This document shows, piece after piece, positions 2,055 to 52,138 of a DNA stretch of 52,548 nt. The DNA is taken from positions 1 through 52,548 of the forward strand of contig NZ_DAHVNP010000007.1 of NCBI RefSeq assembly GCF_027319265.1, read 5' to 3'. Source of the DNA: Ferrimicrobium sp. Its GTDB lineage: Bacteria; Actinomycetota; Acidimicrobiia; Acidimicrobiales; Acidimicrobiaceae. A program made the translations under genes and the position numbers. The stretch's first letter is position 1. Each line of letters opens with the position of its first letter. Below the pieces are notes generated by a model. The model was not told where the DNA came from, did not search any database, and worked only from the letters and a program-made list of their open reading frames with translations.

Positions 2055-3524
2055 CTACTCGGGCGGTGGTTGAGGAGATGAAGATGGTGGTGGGTCAGGG
2101 GGTTGTGGAGACAGCCTCGCTGAGTAGATGGAGCGTAAGTCGAAGCGCCGCGAGATGAGGGTTGCTCCAACGGCGGCAATGAGGATCGGTGCAGTGATGG
2201 CGATCGTGCGCGTGAGTTCGATAGTCATCGCGATACCAGTGAGGGGTGCCTCTATGGCGCCAGCCAGTAGCGCTGCTGCTCCGATCACGGCGAAGGCTGC
2301 GACTGATGGTCCTGGCCACATGAGCAACCAAAGGTGGCCAATAAGTGCACCGAAAATTGCGCCGAAGCTCATGGTTGGGGTGAAGAGGCCACCGGACGCT
2401 CCGCTGCGCAGACAGGCAGCGGTGGCTACCGGTTTGAGTGCCGCAAGTGCGAGAAGAACCAACAGACCAGCGCTGGCCGAGCCGGTGAAAGCATATTGCG
2501 CGAGATCGACACCGTTACCCAGTAGAAGTGGGTACGAGATCGCGACGAAACCTAATGCGGTGAAGACGAGCACTGGTTGGATGAAGAGAAGTCGCCCCTT
2601 GGGCCGGTGATCACTCGCCCAGGTGATGATCTTGACATAACCAGCAGACGCAAGACCCATGACTGGTCCAATAACGATGGCGAAGACGATCAGTGAGGTG
2701 GTGGGGTTCGCCAGTTTGGGCACGAAGTACACGGTGTGAGCGGGGAGAGTAATCCACGATACAACTACCGCAATTCCTGATGTCAATAAGGCGGGAAGCA
2801 CAAGTGGCAGCGACATCGTGCCGAGGTAGATCTCGAGCGCAAAGAGTGCTCCGGCGAGGGGGACGTTGTAGACCGCGCCGAGTCCGGCACCTGCTCCACA
2901 GGCAATCAGGAGCGATCGTTGTTCTGGGGGGAGTGAGAACCTTCGTGCCAGAAAGCTACCGGTGGCAGCGCCCGTGCGTTGGGGTGCCGCTTCGCGCCCT
3001 ATGGACCCTCCCATCGCAACGGTGATCTCCGAGAGCACCCCCGTAGCGAGCGTTCGAATGAGCGACAGGTTTCCTGTTCGTGACCATACGACCTCGGTTG
3101 GCTCGCCTCCGGTGCTGCCGGTAAAGCGGCGCAGTGCCCACAGCCCGAGGCCGGTGACCATACCACCGATGGCGAGTACAACGACGAGTCGTAAGGCGCT
3201 GTGGGCTGCGACGGCGTTTGAGAACTCGCCCGAGTGGTAATCAAACGCGATGTGTTGCACGGTTCGGAGGACTCCCATCATCACCATCGCTCCGATACCT
3301 GCCCCGACGCCGGTGAGCAGTACCAACACCCAGAAGCGCGGTGGAAGGTCCGCAAGTCGGGGTGGGACATTCGCCTGTTCGGCTCCTCGTGAATCCGAGT
3401 TGTGACCTGTTTGGTTTAGTCGACCAAAGAAGCGGTGAATCAGTCGTTGGAGACGACGGAGTAGATCATTCAACGTGCGAACGACCTTTGATCCATAGCG
3501 CGCCATAGGCGGGTATATTGGCAT
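2055..3524 (-). CDS. ClC-family chloride channel or Cl-/H+ antiporter
   Basis: The 489-residue protein has a hydrophilic N-terminus of about 60 residues, then roughly 17-18 hydrophobic segments as expected for a ClC subunit. Three ion-path motifs are visible: GSTGGEP near 136-142 (equivalent to GSGIP), GREAAPQ at 176-182 with the gating glutamate E178, and GGLFTP in the second half (GxFxP). Retention of the gating Glu is compatible with either a channel or an antiporter. It moves chloride or another anion across the inner membrane and could contribute to acid or ionic homeostasis. The Pro/Ser-rich C-terminus lacks CBS domains. It stands alone, with long non-coding flanks on both sides. The ATG at 3524 is the longest option; M7 is an alternative. 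Confidence 0.93.
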   Translation of the reverse strand: MPIYPPMARYGSKVVRTLNDLLRRLQRLIHRFFGRLNQTGHNSDSRGAEQANVPPRLADLPPRFWVLVLLTGVGAGIGAMVMMGVLRTVQHIAFDYHSGEFSNAVAAHSALRLVVVLAIGGMVTGLGLWALRRFTGSTGGEPTEVVWSRTGNLSLIRTLATGVLSEITVAMGGSIGREAAPQRTGAATGSFLARRFSLPPEQRSLLIACGAGAGLGAVYNVPLAGALFALEIYLGTMSLPLVLPALLTSGIAVVVSWITLPAHTVYFVPKLANPTTSLIVFAIVIGPVMGLASAGYVKIITWASDHRPKGRLLFIQPVLVFTALGFVAISYPLLLGNGVDLAQYAFTGSASAGLLVLLALAALKPVATAACLRSGASGGLFTPTMSFGAIFGALIGHLWLLMWPGPSVAAFAVIGAAALLAGAIEAPLTGIAMTIELTRTIAITAPILIAAVGATLISRRFDLRSIYSARLSPQPPDPPPSSSPQPPPE

Positions 3525-4182
3525 CTCATCAGAGGCAGCGGCTTACCATACCTCTCTCCGAGGGCGGTCAACGCCCTCCTACTGGACCGACGCCACCCGG
3601 TGAACTTCTTTACGCGGACTTGATGAGTCATGGTTGAGATAGCTCCGTTCCACGTTGATGATTGGTGAGTCTATCTGGTGCACGTGGGAACGATAGGGGC
3701 CTTCCAGCGTTATCCAAGCGTTCGCATCACTCTAACCATGGGGGTATCCATGAAGATAGAGTTTCCTAACGTTGATGGGCAAGGTGCGCAAGGATAGTGC
3801 CGGGGCTCTTCCTACCTGGGAAATGCGCGATAGTTCGCTGATGGGTCTCCTTGATGGCGACCAGCTTTCGATGTCAAGGTGATCGTTCTTGGGAAACGCT
3901 GATGGAGCAGAACGCGTGATGAGTGATTACTGAAGATGTCGTTGCGCTCTCTTTGGTCACTCGGACATCAGGGTGTGATACGGGTGCCGAGCATCTCGAT
4001 GCGGAGGAGCTGCGCCGATTGGAGATGAAGGGTGGGCCGCAGGCTCACTGCCCCGTGGCCCTTGCTAGACAAGAGCGCTGTCGATAACGTCCGCCATGGT
4101 CTCACGACCGACATACCCAACGCCAACGAGCGGAGTTTATCGTGGTGGTGAGAATACTGGTGATCCAAAGACGCCTGTCGCA
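3525..4182. other. 658-bp region without a convincing gene
   Basis: No recognisable protein is encoded on either strand. The region holds the ClC promoter and leader, including the hairpin at 3560-3578, and the downstream flank of the ABC permease gene. A 71-codon open frame next to the permease stop has no credible composition and was not called. Confidence 0.5.
3560..3578 (-). promoter_or_regulatory. Perfect 7-bp hairpin in the leader of the ClC gene
   Basis: GAGGGCG (3560-3566) and CGCCCTC (3572-3578) form a perfect stem with a 5-nt loop, 36 nt upstream of the ClC start codon. It has no T-tract on either strand, so it could be a leader structure or an operator rather than a terminator. 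Confidence 0.35.
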
Positions 4183-37175: not shown

Positions 37176-37820
37176 TCACTCGACGGTTGTTGGTTGAGTG
37201 GGCGTACTTTCAGTGGCTGAAGACGATGAGGTTTGTTTTGGCTTTCGTGTGAAGGCGAACCAGACGAGTAGGCCGACAGCTAACCCAAGGATTACCTTGC
37301 CGATAACGCCGAGTTCAAAGACGAACCACTTCCAGGCATAGGCAGGATGATGGATGAAGAGTTGTGGGAAACCGAGAAATTTAGGAGCGTACACCACTTT
37401 TCCGATGATGTCATTCATCCGGAGTGGTGGATCAAAGACATCGGGACGACTAGCTGGGTTGTCACCTTTGGTGACGAGATCACCGTTGGGCTTGATCGCG
37501 ATCAGACGGTGGGCCCACACCAGGCCGTTGGCATGGAACTCGATGACCTCCCCGACGTGGTAGGAGGGCTCATGTTCGACGAAGATCATTGATCCCGGGG
37601 GAATGGTGGGGTACATCGAAGGGGTGTAGACGTAGCTGTGATTGGTCCTTGACAAGACAAACGCCCCTCCCGCAAGGATGAAGGTCGCCCAGAGAACCAG
37701 AATGAGTCCAACCGTCCGCCGTAGCTTCGATCGTGTTTGTCGGTCACGCTTCATTGTTTTCGAGTCGCCGGAGTCTTCATTGGAGCTGCATAATTCGGAA
37801 GCTTGCGCTGTGTTCACCAT
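37176..37820 (-). CDS. sipW: SipW-type signal peptidase I
   Basis: The 214-residue protein has a transmembrane helix near 37-57 and a second near 160-180, enclosing the catalytic domain. YTPSMYPTIPPGSM places the nucleophile Ser at S68. The general base is His104 in GLVWAHRLIAI, as in ER/archaeal/SipW peptidases rather than the Ser-Lys dyad of common bacterial ones. KGDNPASRPD (near 118-126) supplies the conserved Asp. It should cleave the secreted TasA-like protein encoded 150 bp upstream on the same strand, and perhaps the paralogue at 51188-52138. An acidic 25-residue N-terminus and a Ser/Thr-rich C-tail extend beyond the usual fold. Confidence 0.9.
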   Translation of the reverse strand: MVNTAQASELCSSNEDSGDSKTMKRDRQTRSKLRRTVGLILVLWATFILAGGAFVLSRTNHSYVYTPSMYPTIPPGSMIFVEHEPSYHVGEVIEFHANGLVWAHRLIAIKPNGDLVTKGDNPASRPDVFDPPLRMNDIIGKVVYAPKFLGFPQLFIHHPAYAWKWFVFELGVIGKVILGLAVGLLVWFAFTRKPKQTSSSSATESTPTQPTTVE

Positions 37821-37970
37821 TCGTAGTCCTTCTTATCTTGTTCTTGTTATCGCTAAGTGGGGCAGATCACTCCTTTGCCGTGCGCGATCGTAAACCTGCG
37901 CAGTGCCCCAATCAAGCGTATGACAAATCTTGATCGGGACACTTTTAGCGACGGTATTTATAAATGCAGG

Positions 37971-38684
37971 TTAGGGTGCACCCGTCGAGCTTCCGCCCGC
38001 CGTCAATTTGGGTGTCTCGCCTTGGGGCTGGGCGCTTTGCTTTGATGGCTCTGCCGTGATGGTGTAGGGAATATCGATGTGAGCCCCATTCCACGCATTG
38101 GCTCCTCCCTCTCCAGACCCAGCTGTATAGGGGGCCAACGCAAACGCGACCGTGGCAGTAGTTATGGTTTGTGACGGAACCGTTCCGAGGGCGAATGTTA
38201 CGGGCTTACCGAGCGTGTATCCGGTGGAAGATTCAGTTGCCTGGTTACTCGGTAGGTTGTTCCCCGAGAATATTTGGTAGTAGTACGTAGTGCCACCTAC
38301 CGTGTACTCTACCCACAATTGTTCGAGAGCTTGTTGGTTGCCAGCAAAGGCCCTATCGAACACGCTTGAAATGTTGAGGGTGAAGTCTTCGGATACGGAG
38401 CCAGTATTGTCGAGTGTTACCGTCTCTGGATTGGTCCAGGTGTAACCCCCCGCCGTAGTAGTACCCGCCGCAGTAGTACCCGCCGCAGATGGGACGAGTT
38501 CACTGGCGACAAGGTTTCCGTCTGTGAGTGTCTGAGAGACGGTAGCCCCAGATGCGTTCAGACTTCCGTTCGTTGTTGCGCTAAACTGCGTGTGTACCGG
38601 CGTTGCGGCAAAGAGCATTGCGGTTGTTCCTCCCGCCACTGCGAGTGCACTGAGTTTGGCGACTATATGATCCCGATATCCCAT
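37971..38684 (-). CDS. TasA/CalY-like secreted protein, SipW substrate
   Basis: The 237-residue protein starts at ATG 38684 after AAGGAGG. A basic-hydrophobic signal (residues about 1-31) ends near TPVHTQFSATTNGS, which resembles the SipW cleavage region of TasA/camelysin proteins. The mature part has a beta-sandwich pattern with VTLDNTGSVSEDFTLNIS (near 92-109), LEQLWVEYTVGGTTYYYQIF near 124 and GGANAWNGAHIDIPYTIT near 196, and a Pro/Gln-rich tail. The LDNTGS and NAWNG elements recur in the paralogue at 51188-52138. TasA proteins form extracellular matrix fibres. The SipW gene directly downstream supports this. It is not confirmed that it polymerises. Confidence 0.82.
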   Translation of the reverse strand: MGYRDHIVAKLSALAVAGGTTAMLFAATPVHTQFSATTNGSLNASGATVSQTLTDGNLVASELVPSAAGTTAAGTTTAGGYTWTNPETVTLDNTGSVSEDFTLNISSVFDRAFAGNQQALEQLWVEYTVGGTTYYYQIFSGNNLPSNQATESSTGYTLGKPVTFALGTVPSQTITTATVAFALAPYTAGSGEGGANAWNGAHIDIPYTITAEPSKQSAQPQGETPKLTAGGSSTGAP

Positions 38685-39173: not shown

Positions 39174-40100
39174 TCAGGTATGGATCATATGATGCAACAG
39201 GATCAACTGCGCCACCGCTAAGGGTGCTGATCGTTCGGTGGAGCTGATCCGCCCGAGGCTCTCGGGGATCTCTCCGTCGAGCCCGATCTTTTCCCAAAGC
39301 TTCTCCTCGACGAGTCGGCTGGCGGATACCGGAGCGTGCCCATGGACGTGGAGTGCATCCACCGGTTTCCCGTCTTGGTCGCGAATGAGTTTGATGTGGG
39401 CGGCCTCTCGAGTGGCTGGGGTCAGAATGTCATGAAGATCTGGGTGTGGCACCGTTGGCCGTAGGAGGATGGTTGCGCTGAGTTCCTTTCGGCCTTCGAC
39501 CGGTGCGAAGGAGATGACGATGTCTGCGTGCGCCCGTTGGGGCCGGATGAACTTCTCTGACTCGGGTTCACGTTTGTCAAGGTCAGCAAGGACCTGTTCC
39601 TCGGTGTAACCACGTTTGGAGACGTCGCGCTGAATCTTCCACTCGCGTCGTATCGGTTCGGGCGGGTCAAGATAGGCGGTGACGTCGAAGGTAGCTCTTG
39701 ACAGACGTGACCAGAGCGGAAATAGCCCCTCGACGATGACGATCTCGCGAGGGGTGAAGAGTTCGGGTCGACCGAGGGTACCGTCTGTATGATGATACTT
39801 AGGTTTGAGGATGGGCTGACCGAGGGTCAGGAGCTGGAGGTGCTGTTCCATGATCTCAAGAAAGTTGCACTCTGGGTTGAGCGGGGTGAAGGGAAGACTC
39901 TTGCGCTCCACGCGATCATACCGATGGTAGTCATCGGTGCAGAATGAAGAGATACGGTGCTCGCCGATAGCCTGGACGAGCCCCTTGGTCAGAGTCGTTT
40001 TGCCGGAGGCTGAATCCCCCGCGATTGCGAGCAGTGCTACACGTTCAGGGTGAGGCTGGGTCGCCAGGAGTTTCTGGATCGCTGCGATTCGATGGGGCAT
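39174..40100 (-). CDS. prk: Phosphoribulokinase
   Basis: The 308-residue P-loop kinase has Walker A GDSASGKTT at 28-36, the ribulose-5-phosphate/catalytic segment CTDDYHRYDR at 54-63 and REIVIVEGLFPLWSR near 116 (Walker-B-like). SKRGYTEEQVLADLDKREPESEKFIRPQRAHADIVI near 161-196 is the second conserved block of class II (plant/cyanobacterial) PRK. It makes ribulose-1,5-bisphosphate from Ru5P and ATP. The gene lies just downstream of the transketolase-GlpX fusion on the same strand, 60 bp apart, so both likely share a transcript. Its start has a GAAGGG site. Lengths of family members are about 290-340. The C-terminal ~80 residues are shorter than in cyanobacterial enzymes. Confidence 0.94.
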   Translation of the reverse strand: MPHRIAAIQKLLATQPHPERVALLAIAGDSASGKTTLTKGLVQAIGEHRISSFCTDDYHRYDRVERKSLPFTPLNPECNFLEIMEQHLQLLTLGQPILKPKYHHTDGTLGRPELFTPREIVIVEGLFPLWSRLSRATFDVTAYLDPPEPIRREWKIQRDVSKRGYTEEQVLADLDKREPESEKFIRPQRAHADIVISFAPVEGRKELSATILLRPTVPHPDLHDILTPATREAAHIKLIRDQDGKPVDALHVHGHAPVSASRLVEEKLWEKIGLDGEIPESLGRISSTERSAPLAVAQLILLHHMIHT

Positions 40101-40160: not shown

Positions 40161-43043
40161 CTAGGGAACCAGGCGGCGGATGATACCGTAGCGCCCCTCT
40201 TGAATCCAGAGACTCTCGAGTTCAGTGAGGTCTCCAACGGCTTTGGGCGGGGCGAGAGGATGCGCTCCTGTTGCCGATGTGGCGACGACGATCGATCCCG
40301 CATGAGCGAGGTCGCTCGCCTCGAATTGCATGGTGTCATACTCCGGATAGACAGCCTTGACGATGGCCGCTTCTGCCTCGCTTTGGGGCGCAAATCGGCT
40401 CTGCATCTGCCCCGAGAGGGCGAGGGTCGCCGCAGCAGAGATGACTCCTTCGGGGGTGCCCCCGATACCCCATAACATCACCGACCCTGGATCACCGCGC
40501 AATACCCGCAGGCTTGCCATGACGTCACCATCGGGTATTTCGATGACAGGTACTCCGTGACTCCGGAGGTTAGCGATCATCGTCTCATGACGCGGTTTAG
40601 CCAGGATGACGACAGTGGTCTCGCCGATGCCGAGTCCAAGACGACTCGCCACATTCTTCACGTTTTCAAGCAGCGGACGCGAGATATCGATGACCCCAGC
40701 AGCTCGCTCGCCAACGATGAGTTTTTCCAGGTAGTAGCCGGGTAGTGGGGTGAATCCTCCCCCGGGGGCTGCGGCGATGACCGAGATCGCACCCTCTCGA
40801 CCGGTGGCCGCAAAGTTGGTTCCCTCCAACGGGTCGATCGCGAGATCGATGTCGATGGTGCCGGTACCGAGCTGCTCTCCGACGTAGAGCATGGGGGCAT
40901 CGTCCTTCTCACCCTCACCCACGATCACGGTAGCAGAGACGGGGAGTCTGCCGAGTTCCTCACGCATGGCCGAGACGGCGGCGGCATCGGCGCGATTCTT
41001 ATCCCCGAGGCCGATCTCGTTGAGCGTGGCACAGGCCGCAGCCTCGGTCGCGCGAAGGAGGTCGGAGACGAGATGTGAGGGATGTCCCAGGCGGTAGGAG
41101 TCGACGACGAGGTCCAGGGCGGCATCGGCAACCTCAGTTGGGGTAAAACCGAAGTGGGCAGCGACCTCGGCCATTGGGGCCGAGATGCCGAAGTCCCGTA
41201 CGTTGTAGAGGCGATCACCAGGACTCAAGAACTCATGCCAACCGGTACCAACACTTGCCTCAAGAACAAGTCGGGGGGTGCCGGTTGGCGCAAAGGCATC
41301 CCGCTCACGTGGATCGATCGCTAAGAACCGTTCCCGCCAGGGCACTGAGACAACTCGTGCATCGACGTCATCTTCGTCTTTGAGGATCTTGGCTGCTGCA
41401 ATAGCGAGCGCAACCTCTGAGCCAGAGGCGACGAGGACGACCTCAGGAGAGGTTCGAGGATCACCGTAGACGATGCGAGCTCCGGTGTTGGCGAGCCAGT
41501 CCGAGTCCTCAGCCGTCGGGATTTGGGGAAGCGGCTGACGGGTAAGGGCAAGGATCGTTGGTCGGTCTCGCTGTGCTAGCGCGAGGTCCCAACTGGCAAA
41601 GGTCTCAAAGGCATCGGCGGGGCGGAGCACCGTCGTATTGGGGATGATGCGGAGTGCTTCGAGTTGTTCGATCGGCTGATGGGTTGGCCCATCCTCTCCC
41701 ACGGCAAATGAGTCGTGTGAGAAGAGATAGATCACCCCAAGCCCCATGAGAGCACTGAGACGCAATGAGGGTCGCAGGTAGTCAGAGAAGACGAGAAAGG
41801 TCGAGACATAGGGGGTAAAGCCGTAGAGAGCCAGACCGTTGGCGATGGCAGCCATCGCATGCTCGCGGATTCCAAAGTGGATCGCTGAGCCCGAGAAGTC
41901 ATCGGGGGTAATCGCTTTGAGCCCAACATTGAGCCCGGTTGACTCCCCAAGGTCGGCTGATCCACCGATCAACCCAGGCGCCGCGTCTGGACCGTTTGCG
42001 ATTGACTTCAGAAACAGTGCCGAAGCCGCCCTGGTGGCCAGTGGTGCCGTTGGTAGGGGAGGGTTCTGGGACGATTGAGCCTGGGTGTTGGCAGTGTGCC
42101 TCCAGGCCTTGTGCTGTTGGCGCCATGCGCTACCTTGGGCTTGCTTGTCGACGACGATGCTTGCCACGTGTTGGCGCACATCCTTGGGAACCCAGAAGGT
42201 CGGCTCAGCGGGCCAGCCGTAGGCGGCCTTTGTCGCTGCAAGCTCCTCAGCGCCGAGCGGTGCGCCATGAGCCTTTGAGGTCCCCTGTTTGGTCGGCGCG
42301 CCTTTGCCGATGATGGTTGGGACGATGATCAGGCTTGGGCGAGCTTGGTCAGCCATCGCCTCGCGGTAGGTCTGCTCGATCTCATCGAGGTCCTCAGGGT
42401 CCATAATCGTGAGGACCTGCCAGCCGTAGCTTTCAAAGCGGGCGACTGGATCGTCAGTACAGGACTGATGTCGTGGGCCATCGATGGTGATGTCATTGGA
42501 GTCATAACCCACAATGAGATGACCCAAGCCGAGCATGCCAGCGAGCGATGCGGCCTCATGGCTGAGGCCCTCCATCAGGTCGCCATCAGAGGCGAGGACG
42601 AAGGTGTAGTGGTCGATGGGAGAGTCATCCGTCTCGTGCCGCAGTTTTGCCTCACCGATGGCCATGCCCACCGCCGTGGCCAGTCCCTGTCCCAGCGGTC
42701 CGGTGGTGGTCTCCACGCCCGGAGTATGTCCGTACTCAGGATGACCAGGGGTTTTTGACGCGATTTGGCGAAAGCGACACAACTCCTCGATGGACAGATT
42801 GTATCCGAAGAGATGGAGCAGCGAGTAGAGAAGCGCGGAGCCATGGCCGGCGGAGAGGATGAAACGATCTCGATTGGGCCAAGTGGGATCTGTCGGATCA
42901 AAGTTCATCAGTCGTGCAAAGAGCGTGTAGGCGACAGGTGCGAGCCCAAGGGGTAGCCCTGGGTGGCCGGAGTTTGCCGCCTCAACTTGGTCGATAGAGA
43001 GCATCCGTACGGTCGTGACGCAACGTTCGTCGATCGGATTCAT
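40161..43043 (-). CDS. Fused transketolase and GlpX-type fructose/sedoheptulose bisphosphatase
   Basis: One frame encodes about 960 residues with two enzymes in series and no stop between them. Residues 1-650 are transketolase: GHPGLPLGLAPVAYTLF near 27-43, TPP motif SDGDLMEGLSHEA near 152-164 with N183, and catalytic E394 in FGIREHAMAAI. Residues about 657-960 are class II FBPase GlpX: GEGEKDDAPML near 708-718, metal site DPLEGTN near 736-742 and GIGGTPEGVISAA near 858-870. The linker is under 10 residues. GlpX makes F6P (and S7P in bifunctional types), both donors for transketolase in the Calvin cycle. ATG 43043 follows AAAGGAG; TTG 43061 lies in that site. It is followed by prk. Confidence 0.95.
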   Translation of the reverse strand: MNPIDERCVTTVRMLSIDQVEAANSGHPGLPLGLAPVAYTLFARLMNFDPTDPTWPNRDRFILSAGHGSALLYSLLHLFGYNLSIEELCRFRQIASKTPGHPEYGHTPGVETTTGPLGQGLATAVGMAIGEAKLRHETDDSPIDHYTFVLASDGDLMEGLSHEAASLAGMLGLGHLIVGYDSNDITIDGPRHQSCTDDPVARFESYGWQVLTIMDPEDLDEIEQTYREAMADQARPSLIIVPTIIGKGAPTKQGTSKAHGAPLGAEELAATKAAYGWPAEPTFWVPKDVRQHVASIVVDKQAQGSAWRQQHKAWRHTANTQAQSSQNPPLPTAPLATRAASALFLKSIANGPDAAPGLIGGSADLGESTGLNVGLKAITPDDFSGSAIHFGIREHAMAAIANGLALYGFTPYVSTFLVFSDYLRPSLRLSALMGLGVIYLFSHDSFAVGEDGPTHQPIEQLEALRIIPNTTVLRPADAFETFASWDLALAQRDRPTILALTRQPLPQIPTAEDSDWLANTGARIVYGDPRTSPEVVLVASGSEVALAIAAAKILKDEDDVDARVVSVPWRERFLAIDPRERDAFAPTGTPRLVLEASVGTGWHEFLSPGDRLYNVRDFGISAPMAEVAAHFGFTPTEVADAALDLVVDSYRLGHPSHLVSDLLRATEAAACATLNEIGLGDKNRADAAAVSAMREELGRLPVSATVIVGEGEKDDAPMLYVGEQLGTGTIDIDLAIDPLEGTNFAATGREGAISVIAAAPGGGFTPLPGYYLEKLIVGERAAGVIDISRPLLENVKNVASRLGLGIGETTVVILAKPRHETMIANLRSHGVPVIEIPDGDVMASLRVLRGDPGSVMLWGIGGTPEGVISAAATLALSGQMQSRFAPQSEAEAAIVKAVYPEYDTMQFEASDLAHAGSIVVATSATGAHPLAPPKAVGDLTELESLWIQEGRYGIIRRLVP

Positions 43044-43768
43044 GAGCTGGCTCCTTTGCAAGGGTCTGGGAGGTGAAGGTGCATTGTATGAGTCATCGTC
43101 CTGTCGTGCTTCTCCTAATGAAAGTCCTTGTCACCACGCGGTGCTGATCCCAATGGAATGAAGACTGGAGTACGCGACCTACCCGTTGGGAACCCGGTTG
43201 TACCTGGCTGATCCTTGGGATGAGTGCACGAGCGCCCCTATCGTGTAACTGATGCGGAGTCTCACAGGGGGCAAGATCCGCGGAATAGGTTGCGAAAATT
43301 GAGGGACACGGTGTCATGGCCGACAAGGAGGTGTGCTCTTTTGTCATGGCATGGGCATGATGCCCGGCGCGAGGACCGCTTTTGTCCGATCTGACGCCCG
43401 CTAGGGAGATGTTCACGGCGCCCCGGTCCTTGCCATGTCGTAATGTTGGGAAATTCGAAGAAGATCTTGCGCATCGGCAGGTGGACAAGTGATGAGGTAT
43501 CATCTCGTTCTGCACCTCCCCTTGGTTGCTGAGCGTTCATGACAACCTAGTTGGTGCGTTGGTTGATCTTCTCCCCAACATGGGTGAGAATGGGGGTGAG
43601 GGCGCTCGCTAAGGCTGCCCTACTAGTGGCGTTCCTCGCTCCATCACCTTAGGCGAGTTCCTGCGATTGCTTCGCAGCAGCACGCGCTTGGAGAGGCGGC
43701 ACCATCTCGGACCTACGGGTGGTTCATTAGTCGTGCATGTCTATTTTGCTCAGTCGCCTCAATAGTGC
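43044..43768. other. 725-bp region without a confirmed gene
   Basis: This region lies between the transketolase-GlpX gene and the sensor kinase gene on the same strand. A plus-strand frame near 43360-43490 and minus-strand frames across 43093-43540 give protein-like but unrecognised text in several frames, as in decayed mobile DNA. It should contain the promoter of the transketolase-GlpX/prk unit. Confidence 0.4.
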
Positions 43769-44941
43769 TTACTGGACGGCATTGGTGGCGATAGGCACCA
43801 AGAGGCGCACCAGGGTTCCCTCACCAAGCGTAGAGAAGAGCTCGAGGCGCCCTCCGATGATCCGAGCCCGCTCTCGCATGCCACCGAGGCCAAAGCCGCC
43901 GACATGAGTCGTCGTGTCAAAGCCGTCCCCACGATCCCGCACGACGACCACCAGGTCGCCAGCGATTGAGGCGAGCCGGAGCTCGCAGGTGGTTACCCCT
44001 GAGTGTTTCCAGGCGTTGTTGATCGCCTCTTGCATAATGCGTAGCACGGCGAGCGCACGTTCGGGGCCAAGGGTAAGGGCGGTGTCGTCGGTTCGATCCT
44101 CGATCACGACGGCGAAGTCGGGATAGGAGTTGGCAAGCGTCTCGATCGCCTCGGCGAATCCAAATTCGTCGAGTGCCTGACGTGGCGTGTCCTGGATCAG
44201 CCGTCGCATTGCCTGGGTGCTCGCTTTGAGCAGATCAGAGGCGACACAGACATCGCGTGCCTCATGTTCATCAAGACCAGGTGAGGCCTTTACCGCCTCA
44301 AGGCGATAGTAGGCGGCGTGAACCTGTTGGAGGACCCCGTCGTGGAGCTCGAGCTGGAGGCGGCGACGTTCCGCCTCCTGGGCTTCGATGAGCTGTTGGG
44401 CAAAGCCCTCTAAGGCGCGCTCGTGGGCTCCGAGCTTTGCCACAAGGAGTGTGTGTTCGAATGCGCCGGCGAGAAAACTCGCGACGGTGGTGAGTACCTG
44501 TTGTTGATGGAGAAGATCGACGTCCTCGTGCTGCCAGTGGACGTTCAGAACCCCGACAACATTCCCACTTGCGTGGATCATTGGCACCGAGATCAGTATC
44601 CGGAAGAGCTCTCCTTGGAGCTCGGGGAGGTAGCGGTAGCGGTGATCGGTCCACTTATCGGGAACGACCGCGACTTGGCCGGTTTGGGCCACCCAGCCAG
44701 CGATGCCATCCCCGAGCCCGAGCCATACTTGGTGACGGTAAGAGTCAAAGGGTGGAGTAGCACCGACGAGTTCAAGACGCATGAGCTCGGGGTCCACGAG
44801 GTGCACAAAGCAGACGCTTGCACCGACCGCATCGACCACGAGTGCTGCTGTCTTCGCAGCCAGTTGATCGAGTTCGAGGGTCTCCGCAAGCACCTGGGCA
44901 AGTTCTCGATATAGCGTGAGTTCTTCGGGTTCAGTATTCAT
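43769..44941 (-). CDS. GAF-domain NarL-type sensor histidine kinase
   Basis: The protein is about 390 residues from ATG 44941 (GTG 44950 possible). Residues about 15-165 are a GAF domain (ASVCFVHLVDPELMRLELVGA, then GIAGWVAQTGQVAVVPD). Residues 185-265 are HisKA_3 with phospho-accepting H200 in EAERRRLQLELHDGVLQQVHAAYY. Residues 290-385 are the HATPase domain with N-box EAINNAWKHS and G-boxes DRGDGFD and GGFGLGGMRERARIIGG. There is no membrane segment, so it is a cytoplasmic sensor. Its response-regulator gene lies just upstream, and both sit inside the Calvin cluster, suggesting redox or carbon sensing. The ligand is unknown. Confidence 0.93.
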   Translation of the reverse strand: MNTEPEELTLYRELAQVLAETLELDQLAAKTAALVVDAVGASVCFVHLVDPELMRLELVGATPPFDSYRHQVWLGLGDGIAGWVAQTGQVAVVPDKWTDHRYRYLPELQGELFRILISVPMIHASGNVVGVLNVHWQHEDVDLLHQQQVLTTVASFLAGAFEHTLLVAKLGAHERALEGFAQQLIEAQEAERRRLQLELHDGVLQQVHAAYYRLEAVKASPGLDEHEARDVCVASDLLKASTQAMRRLIQDTPRQALDEFGFAEAIETLANSYPDFAVVIEDRTDDTALTLGPERALAVLRIMQEAINNAWKHSGVTTCELRLASIAGDLVVVVRDRGDGFDTTTHVGGFGLGGMRERARIIGGRLELFSTLGEGTLVRLLVPIATNAVQ

Positions 44942-44992
44942 CGGTGGCACGAGCTTCGTTGGTAGGACAAAGGATCTTGGCGGTATCGGTAT

Positions 44993-45649
44993 TCATCGGA
45001 ACGTCACGTCCCGCAGAGCCACGGCAACCGCCTCGGCTCTTGACTTGACCTTCAATTTACGATAGATCGAGGAGAGGTGACTCTTGACCGTCTCCTCCCC
45101 GAGGAAGAGACTCTGAGCGATCGATTTTGTTGACATCCCCTTGACGATGAGTTCGAGAATTTCACTCTCTCGATGGGTGAGCCCAAGATGCGCCCCTGGC
45201 CAGAACTCGCCGAGCTGAAGACGAGCGGCGAGGAGTGCCACCCTACCGGCGATGGAGGGATCGATCGTGACCTCGCCATCGACGACTCTTCGTAGGAGTC
45301 CCACAAGTTCAGCTCCGGTGGCCTGCTTGAGTAGGTATCCCCTCGCGCCAGCCCGAAGAGCTCGAAAGAGATAGGCCTCGTCGTCGTAGGCGGTGTAGAA
45401 GACGACTGGAACCTCGATTGCTCGCGCGGTGATCTGGTCGAGGAGTTCAAATCCAGAGCTCGTCTTCAGTCGTGCGTCGGTGAGGACTATGTCGGGTAGC
45501 GGTGGGGTGGCGAGTAGTTCGAGCGCGTCTTCAACGGTCTTTACGGCGGAGACGACCTCCACCTCGTCGACGTGCGTGCGCAACATCGCACGGACTCCGT
45601 CGATGATCACCTCATGGTCATCGACCAGCATCAATTGAATCGTCTTCAC
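44993..45649 (-). CDS. NarL/FixJ-type response regulator
   Basis: The 218-residue protein has a receiver (1-125) with acidic D10-D11, phospho-acceptor D58 in DIVLTDARL and the conserved Lys in ARGYLLKQATGAELV. Residues about 150-215 are a LuxR-type DNA-binding domain (LTHRESEILELIVKGMSTKSIAQSLFLGEETVKSHLSSIYRKLKVKSRAEAVAVAL). The start is GTG 45649, with AGAGGAG upstream. It precedes the GAF kinase gene by 51 bp on the same strand, forming a cognate pair. Their location between fba and the transketolase-GlpX gene suggests they may control CO2-fixation genes. Confidence 0.94.
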   Translation of the reverse strand: MKTIQLMLVDDHEVIIDGVRAMLRTHVDEVEVVSAVKTVEDALELLATPPLPDIVLTDARLKTSSGFELLDQITARAIEVPVVFYTAYDDEAYLFRALRAGARGYLLKQATGAELVGLLRRVVDGEVTIDPSIAGRVALLAARLQLGEFWPGAHLGLTHRESEILELIVKGMSTKSIAQSLFLGEETVKSHLSSIYRKLKVKSRAEAVAVALRDVTFR

Positions 45650-46058: not shown

Positions 46059-47060
46059 TCAGACATTCACCAGGTGTCGGGGCCGCAGAACGGAGGCGGT
46101 GGTGGTAACACGGTCCATCAGACTTGCCTGGGTGCGTTGGCGATCCTGCCCAGAACTCGCCCAGACCTTCATTGGCGTATCTTGGAGAGCGCGTCCAAAG
46201 GAGAAGGTGATTGGCCATGGTAGTGCCTCGATCTCGTTCATGGCAGCCAGATTTGCTGTTGCCATGTCATCGGACTGCCCACCGGAGAGGAGCGCAATCC
46301 CCGCAACGGAGGCCGGCACGACGTCACGATAGCACTCGACTGAGGCCTCCCCGATCTCCCTGGCACTTACCGTTGGACCGGTGTTGCCTGGGGTGACCAT
46401 CGATGGTTTGAGCACCATGCCCGGGAGTAGCACCTCAAAGGAACGGAGCTGGTCAAAGACGGCCGAGAGTACCGTTCCGGCAACTCGTCGGGTGGTCGCG
46501 AGGTCATGATCACCCTCCATGAGGATCTCGGGTTCGACGATTGGGACGATGCCTGACTCTTGACAGAGTTTGGCGTAGCGAGCCAGGGCGTGTGCATTGG
46601 CCCGGATGCAGATCGCGCTTGGCTTCGCCTGGTCGATTTGGAGTACCGCACGCCATTTGGCAAAACGAGCCCCTCTCGCATAGTAGTCGGCGAGACGAGG
46701 GCCGAGGTTGTCTAGTCCCTCAGTCACCAGTTCTCCATCGCTTCCCGCCAGTGGCTTTGCGCCGGTATCAACCTTAATCCCTGGAAGCATGCCGTGCTCA
46801 ACCAAGAAGTCGGGAAAGGAGAGGCCGTTGGCCGTTGTCTGATGGAAGGTTTCATCGTAGAGAATGACACCGGAGACGTATTCTCCGAGCCCAGGCGAGC
46901 TAAAAAGGGTTTCACGCCAGTCTCGGCGAGTTGACTCGGTTGATTCAAGCCCGTGAGCGACAAAGCGTTTGGTGAGGGTGGGGCTACTCTCGTCGGCGGC
47001 GAGGATCCCCTTCGGGTACGCTACCATGGCCCCAGCGTGTTCGATCAGTTCCCTTGACAT
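46059..47060 (-). CDS. fba: Class I fructose-bisphosphate aldolase
   Basis: The 333-residue protein is a eukaryotic-type class I aldolase. KGILAADESSPTLTKRF at 17-33 is the N-terminal signature, K135 in FAKWRAVL and E177/E179 in VEPEILMEGDHDL are catalytic, and Schiff-base lysine K218 is in LLPGMVLKPSMV. SGGQSDDMATANL near 266 binds phosphate. It needs no metal. In the Calvin cycle it makes fructose-1,6-bisphosphate and, in many aldolases, sedoheptulose-1,7-bisphosphate, the substrates of the neighbouring GlpX domain. The gene follows cbbR on the same strand with a 24-bp gap. Most actinobacteria use class II aldolase, so this is a notable choice. Confidence 0.94.
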   Translation of the reverse strand: MSRELIEHAGAMVAYPKGILAADESSPTLTKRFVAHGLESTESTRRDWRETLFSSPGLGEYVSGVILYDETFHQTTANGLSFPDFLVEHGMLPGIKVDTGAKPLAGSDGELVTEGLDNLGPRLADYYARGARFAKWRAVLQIDQAKPSAICIRANAHALARYAKLCQESGIVPIVEPEILMEGDHDLATTRRVAGTVLSAVFDQLRSFEVLLPGMVLKPSMVTPGNTGPTVSAREIGEASVECYRDVVPASVAGIALLSGGQSDDMATANLAAMNEIEALPWPITFSFGRALQDTPMKVWASSGQDRQRTQASLMDRVTTTASVLRPRHLVNV

Positions 47061-47084: not shown

Positions 47085-48041
47085 TCAACCTAGGCGCTGC
47101 GATCCGTGAACCTTCTCACCCAAAGCGTGGGGTGCCGGGGTGAACTCCACCTCACCCATGGACCCTAGATAGTTGGCAAAATGCTCGATACTGCCAACAA
47201 GCGCCTCGCCAGTACGGACGGCAAGACACCAGGTTCGACGTTGAGGAAAGGGCTCTACGGTCAAAGAGACGAGTTCGCCAGCGGCTAACTCCTTGGCCAC
47301 TGACTCAGTTGAGATCACGGCAATGCCAAGACCGAGCTCCACGAGCCGCTTCATGGCAAGGTTCGATCCAACCGAGAGAGTCGCTGGGCTGATCGCGAGT
47401 TCACCCAGGAGTTCTTCGGCTGAGGCGCGTGTCCCTGAACCTGGCTCACGAACGAGCCAGGTGTGCTCCCCGATCTGTTGGGCGGTGGGTGAGAGTGAAC
47501 CGCCGAACCATTCGGTGGCTCGTCGTTCATTGGCGATCAGGGCAAGTTCATGGGCTCGGGTGGCGATGACACGCACGAATTCACTCTGGGTTGGCCTCCC
47601 TGAGATGACCAGATCGACTCGATGGTCGTTGAGGAGTTCGAAGAGACTCGTCTTGTTGGCGACCTCGAGGTTGATGGTCGCGTGTGGCACCAACTCGAGG
47701 TAACCCTGGAGCCACCGTGGGAGGAGCTCCTCTCCAACGGTGGCAACGGCCCCGATCCTCAGCGTTGGTGCATCGGGACGGCTGGCTTCTCGGCTGCGCA
47801 CTATCGCCTCCTCCATGGCACCGAGGAGGGTTGCGGCATACCCGGCGAGGACGCTGCCTGCCGGGGTGAGGGTGAGTCCGCGTCCAACGCGCTGGGTCAG
47901 GTCTGTGCCCACCTCGCGCGATAGAGCCGCCAAGGTCGAGGAGACGGCGGCCGAACTGACGAAGAGCCGTCGGCTCGCTCCAATGACGGATCCGGTGTCG
48001 GCCACCGCCAGCAGGGTTTTGAGTTGTGTATTGGTCATCAT
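47085..48041 (-). CDS. cbbR: LysR-family regulator CbbR of the RubisCO operon
   Basis: The 318-residue LysR regulator has an N-terminal winged helix (TQLKTLLAVADTGSVIGASRRLFVSSAAVSSTLAALSREVG at 4-44) followed by the linker helix and a two-lobed effector-binding domain from about residue 92. The CbbR assignment rests on divergent orientation from cbbL with 122 bp between, where an LTTR palindrome is present, and on similarity to CbbR-like proteins in the effector domain (LRIGAVATVGEELLPRWLQGY). It probably activates cbbLSX in response to NADPH or Calvin-cycle metabolites. It is followed by fba. Two ATGs (48041 and 48038) are equivalent starts. Confidence 0.9.
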   Translation of the reverse strand: MMTNTQLKTLLAVADTGSVIGASRRLFVSSAAVSSTLAALSREVGTDLTQRVGRGLTLTPAGSVLAGYAATLLGAMEEAIVRSREASRPDAPTLRIGAVATVGEELLPRWLQGYLELVPHATINLEVANKTSLFELLNDHRVDLVISGRPTQSEFVRVIATRAHELALIANERRATEWFGGSLSPTAQQIGEHTWLVREPGSGTRASAEELLGELAISPATLSVGSNLAMKRLVELGLGIAVISTESVAKELAAGELVSLTVEPFPQRRTWCLAVRTGEALVGSIEHFANYLGSMGEVEFTPAPHALGEKVHGSQRLG

Positions 48042-48151: not shown

Positions 48152-49612
<1,461 letters not shown>

Positions 49613-49633: not shown

Positions 49634-50050
49634 ATGCATCTCACCCAGGGCCAATTTTCATTTCTGCCACCACTGACCGACGAGCAGATCTCCGCCCAGA
49701 TTCGTTGGGCTCTCGATCACGATTGGGCGCTCGGCATCGAGTTCACCGATGACCCACATCCGCGCAATACCTACTGGGATATGTGGGGCATGCCGATGTT
49801 TGACCTGCGCGATCCGGCGGCCATTCTCTATGAGATCAACGAGTGTCGTCGGGCGTATCCGAACCGCTATATTCGGGTGACTGCCTTTGATTCAACGAGA
49901 GGGTGGGAGGCGCCCCGGATGTCCTATCTGGTCAATCGACCGGAGGAAGAGCCTGGGTTCGGGCTTGTTCGCCAGGAGGGCGAGGGTCGCCACATCACCT
50001 ACACCACGCATAGCTATGCCACGGAGCAGCCGCCCGGGGAACGCTATTGA
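49634..50050 (+). CDS. cbbS: RubisCO small subunit, red-type
   Basis: The 138-residue protein starts at ATG 49634, 21 bp after cbbL, with an AGAGGAG site. The N-terminus [37 protein letters not shown] and [40 protein letters not shown] are the conserved core. The C-terminal tail of about 35 residues ([26 protein letters not shown]) is the beta-hairpin extension typical of red-type small subunits. It assembles with CbbL into the L8S8 holoenzyme in the cytoplasm. Confidence 0.97.
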
Positions 50051-50122
50051 ACAGCAATGGCTCCATGAGGTGCCTAACGCAGCTGGTCACGCATCATGGG
50101 TGACCAGGAGGGGGGCGGGGCC

Positions 50123-51022
50123 ATGTCCGATGGTGTAGATCTTGGAGCCCTGTTTCTCGAGACGAAGATCCAGGAGACGCTCGACGAACTCGATGCGGAG
50201 CTTGTCGGTCTTCGACCGGTCAAGACCCGTATTCGTGAGATCGCTGCGCTGCTCCTTGTCGATCGTGCGCGAGCGCAGCTTGATCTCGCGGGGGGTAATC
50301 CCAGTCTGCACATGAGTTTCACCGGTAACCCAGGCACTGGAAAAACAACGGTGGCGATGCGCATGGCTGAACTGTTGGCCAAACTTGGCTACGTTCGCCA
50401 AGGCCAGCTTGTGGCGGTCACCCGCGATGACCTGGTTGGCCAATATATCGGACACACTGCTCCAAAGACCAAGGAGGTCCTCAAACGAGCTATGGGGGGT
50501 GTGCTCTTCATCGATGAGGCGTACTACCTATTCAAGCCCGAGAACGAGCGAGATTATGGCGCCGAGTCGATTGAGATACTCCTGCAGGTGATGGAGAACC
50601 AGCGTAACGATCTCGTGGTGATCTTGGCGGGGTACAAGGACCGCATGGATACCTTCTTTAGCTCGAACCCTGGGATGTCGTCACGGATCGCCCATCATAT
50701 CGATTTTCCTGATTACTCCCTCGATGAGCTGGTCGCGATTGGCAAGCTTATGCTTGCAGCCCAGCAGTATCGGCTCTCCGACGAAGCCGAAGGAGTCTTT
50801 CGGCGATATCTTGAACTTCGGATGGCCCAGCCCAACTTTGCCAACGCAAGAAGTGTGCGCAATGCCCTCGATCGGACTCGTCTGCGCCAGGCCAACCGGC
50901 TCTTTGAACGACGCGGTGCGCTGGTTACTCGAGTGGATCTCATGACGATAGAGCCGCCTGACATCCTGGCAAGCCGTGTCTTTGACACAGACGCACAAGA
51001 GGATAGCCACCAAAAAGAGTGA
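50123..51022 (+). CDS. cbbX: CbbX, red-type RubisCO activase
   Basis: The AAA+ protein is 299 residues from ATG 50123, whose AGGAGG site lies within 50105-50120; an in-frame ATG at 50096 lacks a site. Walker A is GNPGTGKT at 68-75, Walker B LFIDEA at 128-133, and [16 protein letters not shown] (near 105-120) is the pore-loop region that engages the CbbL C-terminus. [17 protein letters not shown] near 190 is the sensor/arginine-finger area. It removes inhibitory sugar phosphates from RubisCO using ATP. It is third in the cbbLSX operon, 72 bp after cbbS. A strong hairpin follows. Confidence 0.97.
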
Positions 51023-51187: not shown

Positions 51188-52138
51188 TTATGGGTTCGAC
51201 GCGAGGGCCCTACGGCGTCGATTGGTCTCGAGGACGCTGATACCTGCGATGCCTAGCCCTAGAAGGCCCCCACCGACCACCATCTCCCAATTGCTACTGC
51301 GTGGTGATTGGGGTGGACCGGTGACGAGTCGTACGGGCGCTGGTGCCGAGTTGTGAGATGTAGAGACCGGCGCGGTGACCCGGGGAGTGGTCGATGAGTC
51401 GCGAGAGACCGGGACGCGGCTAGTCGTCGGGGCATGGCCAACTACCGGGAGCGTTGTCGGGGGTATCACGCCGAGCGGCGTAGTGGAGGGTCGGCGAGTA
51501 GGTGCTGGTGCGCTCTGGCTGGCGACGATCCGATAACTGATCGTCGCCGATTGGCCATTCCAAGCGTTGCCAAAACCCTCTCCGTTGGCTAACTCGACCG
51601 CAACGGGTATGGATACCCGCTGGTTTGGAGCGACGCCAGTCGCAATGGGCAGGGTGATACTTTTCAGTGATGACAAGGTGAGCGACGAGGACGGATCAAG
51701 ACTGTTGGACGCGTTGGGATCGAGATGGTAGGTGATCGTCCCCTTAGAGGTGGTCACCAAAAATTCGAGCTGACCGAGGTCGCTAAAGCGAGCAAGCGTA
51801 TCGGTGACGCCGGTGAATTGGAGATCGAAGTCTTCCGACGCAGTGCCGGTATTGGTCAGTGTGAAGGGAATCGTGTTGGTCGGTATGCCGGGAAGCAGGT
51901 TTGTTGCCCGCAGCGTCCCGTTGGTGAGACTGACACCGACCGATGAACTGACAAACGCGCTTGCCGGAGTCGCAAAGGCACCTTGGCCAGAGAGAGCAAA
52001 GGTCGCGACAGAGGCTGAGGCGCCAACGGCGATCACCGTCCAGCCCATACTCGTGAACCGCGGCCATACCCTTCTCTGTCTATGCGTGTAATCCAACGGT
52101 ATGCCCTTCGATGACGGATGCCTTCGATCGACGAGCAT
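51188..52138 (-). CDS. TasA-like secreted protein with C-terminal membrane anchor
   Basis: The frame of up to 316 residues opens at ATG 52138; TTG 52096 behind a GAAGGG site is a credible alternative start. A signal anchor lies near residues 30-52 (MGWTVIAVGASASVATFALSG). The beta-rich domain shares elements with the 37971-38684 protein: FTLTNTGTASEDFDLQFT, DLGQLEFLVTTSKGTITYHLD and FGNAWNGQSATISYRIV. A long Pro/Thr/Ser spacer (residues about 215-275) is followed by one helix (MVVGGGLLGLGIAGISVLE) and a basic tail, so it is fixed in the membrane. It could anchor or nucleate fibres of the smaller paralogue. The stop is 166 bp from cbbX. Confidence 0.8.
   Translation of the reverse strand: MLVDRRHPSSKGIPLDYTHRQRRVWPRFTSMGWTVIAVGASASVATFALSGQGAFATPASAFVSSSVGVSLTNGTLRATNLLPGIPTNTIPFTLTNTGTASEDFDLQFTGVTDTLARFSDLGQLEFLVTTSKGTITYHLDPNASNSLDPSSSLTLSSLKSITLPIATGVAPNQRVSIPVAVELANGEGFGNAWNGQSATISYRIVASQSAPAPTRRPSTTPLGVIPPTTLPVVGHAPTTSRVPVSRDSSTTPRVTAPVSTSHNSAPAPVRLVTGPPQSPRSSNWEMVVGGGLLGLGIAGISVLETNRRRRALASNP

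Follow-up and report, generated by a model that had tools for sequence, protein, structure and literature searches.

The window, a 52,548-nucleotide stretch of DNA from Ferrimicrobium sp., carries a transketolase and a GlpX-type bisphosphatase fused in a single uninterrupted gene on the reverse strand (Table 1). The 960 codons between the start and stop codons contain no internal stop, and the probability that so long a stop-free frame occurs by chance, calculated from the base composition, is approximately 6 × 10^-13. A Shine-Dalgarno-like sequence precedes the start codon. No in-frame ATG, GTG or TTG is present between residues 624 and 693, and the production of a separate GlpX protein from an internal start is therefore unlikely.

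Table 1 Features of the transketolase-GlpX locus and the surrounding gene cluster (positions in the window)
Feature	Position	Strand	Basis and remarks
TK-GlpX fusion gene	40161..43043	(-)	960 aa + stop, 102 kDa; ATG at 43043, TAG at 40161; open frame, NCBIfam, Pfam
Transketolase (TK) half, residues 1-647	41103..43043	(-)	TIGR00232, Pfam; closest listed solved folds are transketolases
Junction, residues 648-656	41076..41102	(-)	low-confidence link from the TK terminal helix to the first GlpX helix; AlphaFold2 and 15 fusions compared
Class II FBPase (GlpX-type) half, residues 657-960	40164..41075	(-)	PF03320; GlpX and F/SBPase structures as sequence matches
AAAGGAG, Shine-Dalgarno-like site	43051..43057	(-)	ends 7 nt before the ATG
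Phosphoribulokinase, next gene downstream	39174..40100	(-)	NF005655 above cut-off
Two-component pair	43769..45649	(-)	histidine kinase 43769-44950, NarL-type response regulator 44993-45649
Class I fructose-bisphosphate aldolase	46059..47060	(-)	NF033379 above cut-off
LysR-type regulator, CbbR-like by position	47085..48041	(-)	below the NCBIfam CbbR cut-off
RuBisCO large subunit	48164..49612	(+)	NF003252 above cut-off; PF00016
Putative RuBisCO small subunit	49634..50050	(+)	position and look; zero NCBIfam matches
CbbX, RuBisCO activase	50096..51022	(+)	TIGR02880 above cut-off

The N-terminal half of the fusion is a complete bacterial transketolase, to which the fusion adds a C-terminal bisphosphatase. 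Residues 8–642 align to positions 3–649 of the 654-position model TIGR00232 with a score of 695.6 bits, above the cut-off of 682.25 bits. The Pfam domains Transketolase_N (residues 5–323), Transket_pyr (335–506) and Transketolase_C_1 (531–634) all exceed their gathering scores (PF00456, PF02779, PF22613). When the predicted structure of the fusion was compared with solved structures using Foldseek, 49 of the 50 matches listed (916 in all) were titled transketolase or a misspelling of it, and the remaining one is a Thermus protein with a title that names no function. The twelve ThDP and substrate positions that we examined, which include E394, are all invariant in 15 fusions.

The C-terminal half is related to class II fructose-1,6-bisphosphatases (FBPases) and fructose-1,6-/sedoheptulose-1,7-bisphosphatases (F/SBPases). 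Residues 658–957 match positions 3–302 of the 307-position family FBPase_glpX (PF03320) with approximately 298–302 bits (gathering cut-off 27); the stand-alone GlpX encoded elsewhere in the genome scores 449 bits. A sequence search of solved structures matched nine distinct class II FBPase or F/SBPase sequences, named glpX or FBPase class 2/SBPase. In contrast to these enzymes, the bisphosphatase is here fused behind a transketolase and its C-terminal region is divergent. The score against the GlpX equivalog TIGR00330, 251.9 bits, is below the cut-off of 259.3, and the match covers only positions 5–240 of the 334 in the model.

The catalytic positions of the GlpX half are kept, as 12 of the 14 positions examined are invariant in 15 fusions. 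The two exceptions are E712, replaced by valine or alanine in three of the 15, and K682, replaced by arginine in four. Residues D686, E710, D737, E740, T742 and E865, identified by alignment to the sequence of a glpX structure, are invariant; we take them to match the metal and substrate ligands D33, E57, D85, E88, T90 and E213 of the Escherichia coli enzyme. The motif DPLEGT is invariant, and I860 and T863 vary within the motif GIGGTPEG. The two halves together have 24 of 26 active-site positions invariant in the 15 fusions, and the 14 other fusions are 48–82% identical to that in the window.

An AlphaFold2 model of the fusion, calculated from a 15-sequence alignment (mean pLDDT 81.8, pTM 0.65), contains the terminal helix of transketolase at residues 635–652 and the first helix of GlpX at residues 657–676, with pLDDT values below 50 at residues 650–656. 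The two halves are predicted to be separated by about 5–10 residues. The junction stretch between two fixed alignment columns is 17 residues long in the window and 12 to 27 residues long in the 14 relatives.

These results bear out most of an earlier note on this DNA. The note described one open frame with a strong ribosome site and a complete transketolase with catalytic E394, both of which we observe, and fewer than 10 linking residues, which is a fair description because the low-confidence gap of the model lies between the two helices. The loss of active-site residues that it named as possible counter-evidence was not seen at 24 of the 26 positions. The claim of a complete GlpX holds for the Pfam family, which is matched almost end to end, but not for the divergent C-terminal part, nor for the equivalog model.

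The fusion gene lies inside a Calvin-cycle cluster, as had been noted before. It is followed by the gene for phosphoribulokinase. Upstream are the genes of a histidine kinase and a response regulator, class I aldolase, and a LysR-type regulator, and beyond them the divergent genes of the RuBisCO large subunit, its putative small subunit, and CbbX. The histidine kinase and NarL-type regulator pair adjoins the cluster in several genera (loci L186, L187, L190, L191, L192, L193, L195 and L063) and is a candidate regulator of Calvin-cycle genes. Part of a regulator match is also present near the tkt-glpX-prk operon of a genome from another class (G854). Signal-peptidase-like and TasA/camelysin-like frames, recognized from the look of their translations, flank the cluster at positions 37,176–38,684 and 51,188–52,138.

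The same genome, a draft of 82 contigs, also encodes a stand-alone transketolase followed by transaldolase (contig C31) and a stand-alone canonical GlpX (contig C76). No match to a class I FBPase was found in it. Because of the transketolase-transaldolase pair and the canonical GlpX, the route through an SBPase is not forced.

The fusion is widespread in the family Acidimicrobiaceae. In 28 of the 42 genomes, one of which is a single-contig genome, an unbroken reading frame runs through the junction and joins the two halves, and the frameshift or stop between the domains that the earlier note had considered is thus not found in them. Nine of the 28 genes are truncated at another point, at the end of a contig or close to it (G395, G396, G397, G398, G401, G405, G412, G415 and G416), and that of G396 has a single stop that lies near this end and far beyond the junction. 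In three genomes (G399, G402 and G403), a stop at the junction divides transketolase and GlpX into two neighbouring genes, and in one (G418) the gene is cut by the contig end before the junction. The fusion was not found in the other 10 genomes, G417 and nine members of genus g6; its absence is weaker in G421 and G422, because the transketolase gene there is cut or was not found.

Among the matches listed (two to five candidates per genome), full-length matches were present in 10 of 12 family genomes and none of 286 others in a scan of the order, in 3 of 3 family genomes and none of 393 others in a scan of the phylum with an overlapping sample, and in none of 259 and none of 150 genomes in scans of the phyla to which two genomes belong that were reached through records titled Bacillota and Chelatococcus. 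Among 731 plasmid records with a match, five reach a query coverage of 80% or more; in each of them the match falls into two pieces, and tkt and glpX are annotated separately. A single locus outside the family, from Methylomirabilota (L065), matches both halves among the 80 of 588 loci listed. It was rejected as a fusion, since the HMM match crosses four stops and the locus encodes a 597-residue transketolase frame and a separate 337-residue GlpX. The activity of this GlpX (L065, positions 2604–3617) is doubtful, because asparagine, aspartate and valine replace the equivalents of D714, E740 and T742. Other candidates were likewise set aside: transketolase and GlpX of G854 are in different frames, and the long frames or matches at L089, L125, L177 and L179 are transketolase frames that lack GlpX. 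Open-frame length in the class scan with PF03320 (395 genomes) was abandoned as a fusion detector, since many frames owe their length to something else and second matches with weaker scores are unlisted.

Fusion of transaldolase with glucose-6-phosphate isomerase occurs in actinobacteria. It resembles the fusion described here in joining sugar-phosphate enzymes in one chain, but concerns other enzymes and another step. Transaldolase matches in G334, G424, G402, G214 and others are situated in open frames of about 940–1060 residues, which is presumably the size of such transaldolase-isomerase proteins.

In a transketolase tree of 39 rows, the fused and split sequences form one clade (100/99), with the split trio placed beside G214 (99/96). 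A second transketolase tree of 24 rows, including four of an outgroup, rejects a clade of fused sequences only (p-AU 3.2 × 10^-5), and the fewest changes required are two. Both trees took in part of the fetched loci. Because the fused-only clade is rejected and two changes suffice, one fusion and one later fission are the simplest account, and the nesting of the split lineage among fused rows rules out that it was originally unfused. A GlpX tree of 34 rows carries a warning of long-branch attraction, and the history therefore rests on the transketolase trees. According to these phylogenies, the fusion most likely arose once, in the ancestor of most of the Acidimicrobiaceae.

A possible precursor is found in G854, which belongs to another class of the same phylum. 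Four consecutive frames there encode an epimerase-like protein (judged by its look), transketolase, GlpX and phosphoribulokinase. The order of the last three resembles that of the fusion locus, but glpX starts inside the tkt stop codon, so that the two frames share a four-base ATGA overlap. A small frame change would therefore fuse the two genes. The gene arrangement suggests that a tkt-glpX-prk operon with an ATGA overlap is likely the ancestral state.

The fission was accompanied by a change in the evolution of GlpX. In a set of 20 rows, the ratio of GlpX to transketolase divergence is 0.38–1.25 (median 1.15) in 136 fused pairs and 3.25–3.86 in three split pairs, which count as one event because they form one clade. 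Relative to transketolase, the divergence of GlpX at the split loci (L056, L057 and L186) is about three times that in any of the fused pairs, which may reflect relaxed constraint, positive change or altered function. All three split GlpX proteins keep D686, E710, D737, E740 and E865; glutamate replaces D838 in G402, and asparagine replaces H819 in G403.

The fusion co-occurs with RuBisCO. The large subunit was matched in 27 of the 42 family genomes, 26 of which have the fusion or the split pair, and the remaining one is G418. Conversely, 26 of the 31 genomes with the fusion or split pair have a RuBisCO match. The 15 genomes with no such match comprise five with the fusion (G397, G409, G410, G411 and G412) and the 10 in which it was not found. 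The association is significant (Fisher p 2.7 × 10^-6, 41 genomes), although the value is inflated because the genomes are related and not independent. Since the split lineage keeps RuBisCO, the fusion is not essential.

Phosphoribulokinase was looked for at 30 loci, 27 fused and three split. Six of the fusion loci end 40 or fewer bases past the GlpX match, and 21 are therefore assessable. The gene lies directly downstream of the fusion at 19 of these 21 loci and of the split pair at all three. The two exceptions (G406a and G409) are sister sequences in the transketolase tree (100/99). Genome G406 has two fusions (L193 and L194), one in its RuBisCO cluster and the other elsewhere, with no adjoining phosphoribulokinase; G406a and G409 are therefore regarded as a second type of copy, located away from the cluster. 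In G409 (L036), this copy type is the sole fusion found. As for the other fused genomes with no RuBisCO match, phosphoribulokinase follows in G397, G410 and G411, and the locus of G412 is truncated by the end of its contig. Three of them, G411 (L192), G410 (L053) and G412 (L054), belong to genus g3; aldolase is present in G411, and one of the three genomes is 96% complete. The lack of RuBisCO matches in this genus may result from gene loss or a binning gap.

According to PMC12999727, Acidimicrobium ferrooxidans grows autotrophically, and Acidithrix does not fix CO2. The literature describes two species of the group as heterotrophic, and CO2 fixation by Ferrimicrobium acidiphilum was not detected despite its type I RubisCO and 11 further enzymes of the cycle (PMC4417700).

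We hypothesize that the fusion is one bifunctional enzyme of Calvin-cycle regeneration, and assign this reading a probability of roughly three in four. Dephosphorylation of fructose-1,6-bisphosphate (FBP) and sedoheptulose-1,7-bisphosphate (SBP) yields fructose-6-phosphate (F6P) and sedoheptulose-7-phosphate (S7P), which are the ketose donors of transketolase in the Calvin cycle. The GlpX-type half would remove phosphate from FBP and probably also from SBP, and the transketolase half would use the resulting F6P and S7P as sources of two-carbon units for xylulose-5-phosphate. We infer these activities, and the role in CO2 fixation, from the observed sequence, its conservation, the gene context and the history of the fusion. 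The protein would have originated once, when tkt and glpX, overlapping in a tkt-glpX-prk operon, were joined. Because tkt and glpX are joined in one gene, the single chain would fix their ratio at 1:1, and it would place an irreversible bisphosphatase step beside a transketolase step that runs near equilibrium. Several observations tell against this reading: the divergent C-terminal region of the GlpX half and its variable residues K682 and E712, the transaldolase, second transketolase and second GlpX encoded in the genome, the fusions in genomes with no RuBisCO match, the published reports on F. acidiphilum and Acidithrix, and the survival of the split lineage. The copy type with no adjoining phosphoribulokinase weighs slightly against it, whereas the frequent downstream phosphoribulokinase and the ATGA overlap in G854 favour it.

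The action of GlpX-type enzymes on both FBP and SBP, proposed in the earlier note, has a precedent in GlpX-P of Bacillus methanolicus, for which FBPase and SBPase activities are given in the covered part of the report (PMC3905653). Our search of plasmid records found tkt and glpX on the same stretch of the B. methanolicus plasmid pBM19, and a transketolase and a GlpX with both bisphosphatase activities are thus encoded close together there too. However, B. methanolicus is a methylotroph using the RuMP cycle, the two enzymes are separate proteins with no fusion, and an aldolase gene lies in the same stretch. The second GlpX of B. methanolicus, which has SBPase activity, is dedicated to its pathway and encoded beside tkt; in the genome of the window, the second GlpX is joined to transketolase itself.

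The possible benefit of the link is a separate question. It is quite conceivable, though short of an even chance, that the fusion serves neutral co-expression: both halves would work, the link would bring no kinetic benefit, and the frame change would have been fixed by drift. This explanation can hold together with the presence of two activities. The fission lineage lives without the fused protein, the junction varies in length and sequence, and one small frame change would have been enough in an operon such as that of G854; on the other hand, the single frame is kept in two thirds of the family genomes with one fission seen, and GlpX drifts faster once freed. We also speculate, while considering it unlikely, that obligate transketolase dimers are bridged by GlpX dimers or tetramers into a higher-order assembly, in which F6P and S7P would be passed locally between active sites. 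If so, the irreversible step would pull the reversible one and shield the cycle from draining by the separate transketolase-transaldolase pair, and the split lineage with its faster-diverging GlpX would have lost the coupling and could serve as a natural control.

Other explanations concern the function of the protein or its existence. The GlpX half could have shifted to a regulatory or structural module, or to a phosphatase for another sugar phosphate, with the stand-alone canonical GlpX doing the FBPase work. Its score below the equivalog cut-off, its changed C-terminal region, and the rapid divergence of GlpX in the split lineage are consistent with such a shift; however, it is quite unlikely in view of the 12 invariant positions, which include the metal-ligand equivalents, and of the five that persist in all three split proteins. 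A role in the pentose phosphate pathway or gluconeogenesis instead of the Calvin cycle appears distinctly improbable. The five fused genomes with no RuBisCO match, of which three share a genus and one of these three is nearly complete, would fit this role, as would the copy type with no adjoining phosphoribulokinase and the heterotrophic species of the group. Nevertheless, phosphoribulokinase still follows the fusion in three of these five genomes, the stand-alone transketolase-transaldolase pair is able to serve the pentose phosphate pathway, and the fusion was not found in the nine genomes of a genus with no RuBisCO matches. Although the window comes from a draft genome, the chance of an assembly or sequencing artefact is negligible, because the same architecture recurs throughout the fused genomes of the family, including the one on a single contig. 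The bifunctional regeneration enzyme is therefore the reading that we prefer.

A search of titles and abstract beginnings in the open literature, a scope outside which most subscription papers fall, found none with a transketolase-GlpX fusion as its topic, in line with the earlier impression that it is not a well-described enzyme. The word transketolase is mentioned zero times in PMC12999727, PMC4417699, PMC8357290 and PMC4417700.

F/SBPase, and possibly transketolase, is thought to control the flux through the Calvin cycle and the outflow from it, according to the covered part of a further paper (PMC10507043). Here evolution has joined these two steps; the joint persists between fusions that share as little as about 50% sequence identity, and a sister lineage has undone it. 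The fusion and the split lineage together would make it possible to ask, in a system that already exists in nature, if flux changes when both steps are brought together, and the fusion may be a part for synthetic CO2-fixation designs. For the Acidimicrobiaceae themselves, the finding means that an acid-loving bacterial family makes both enzymes as one long-kept protein, mostly beside the genes for CO2 fixation.
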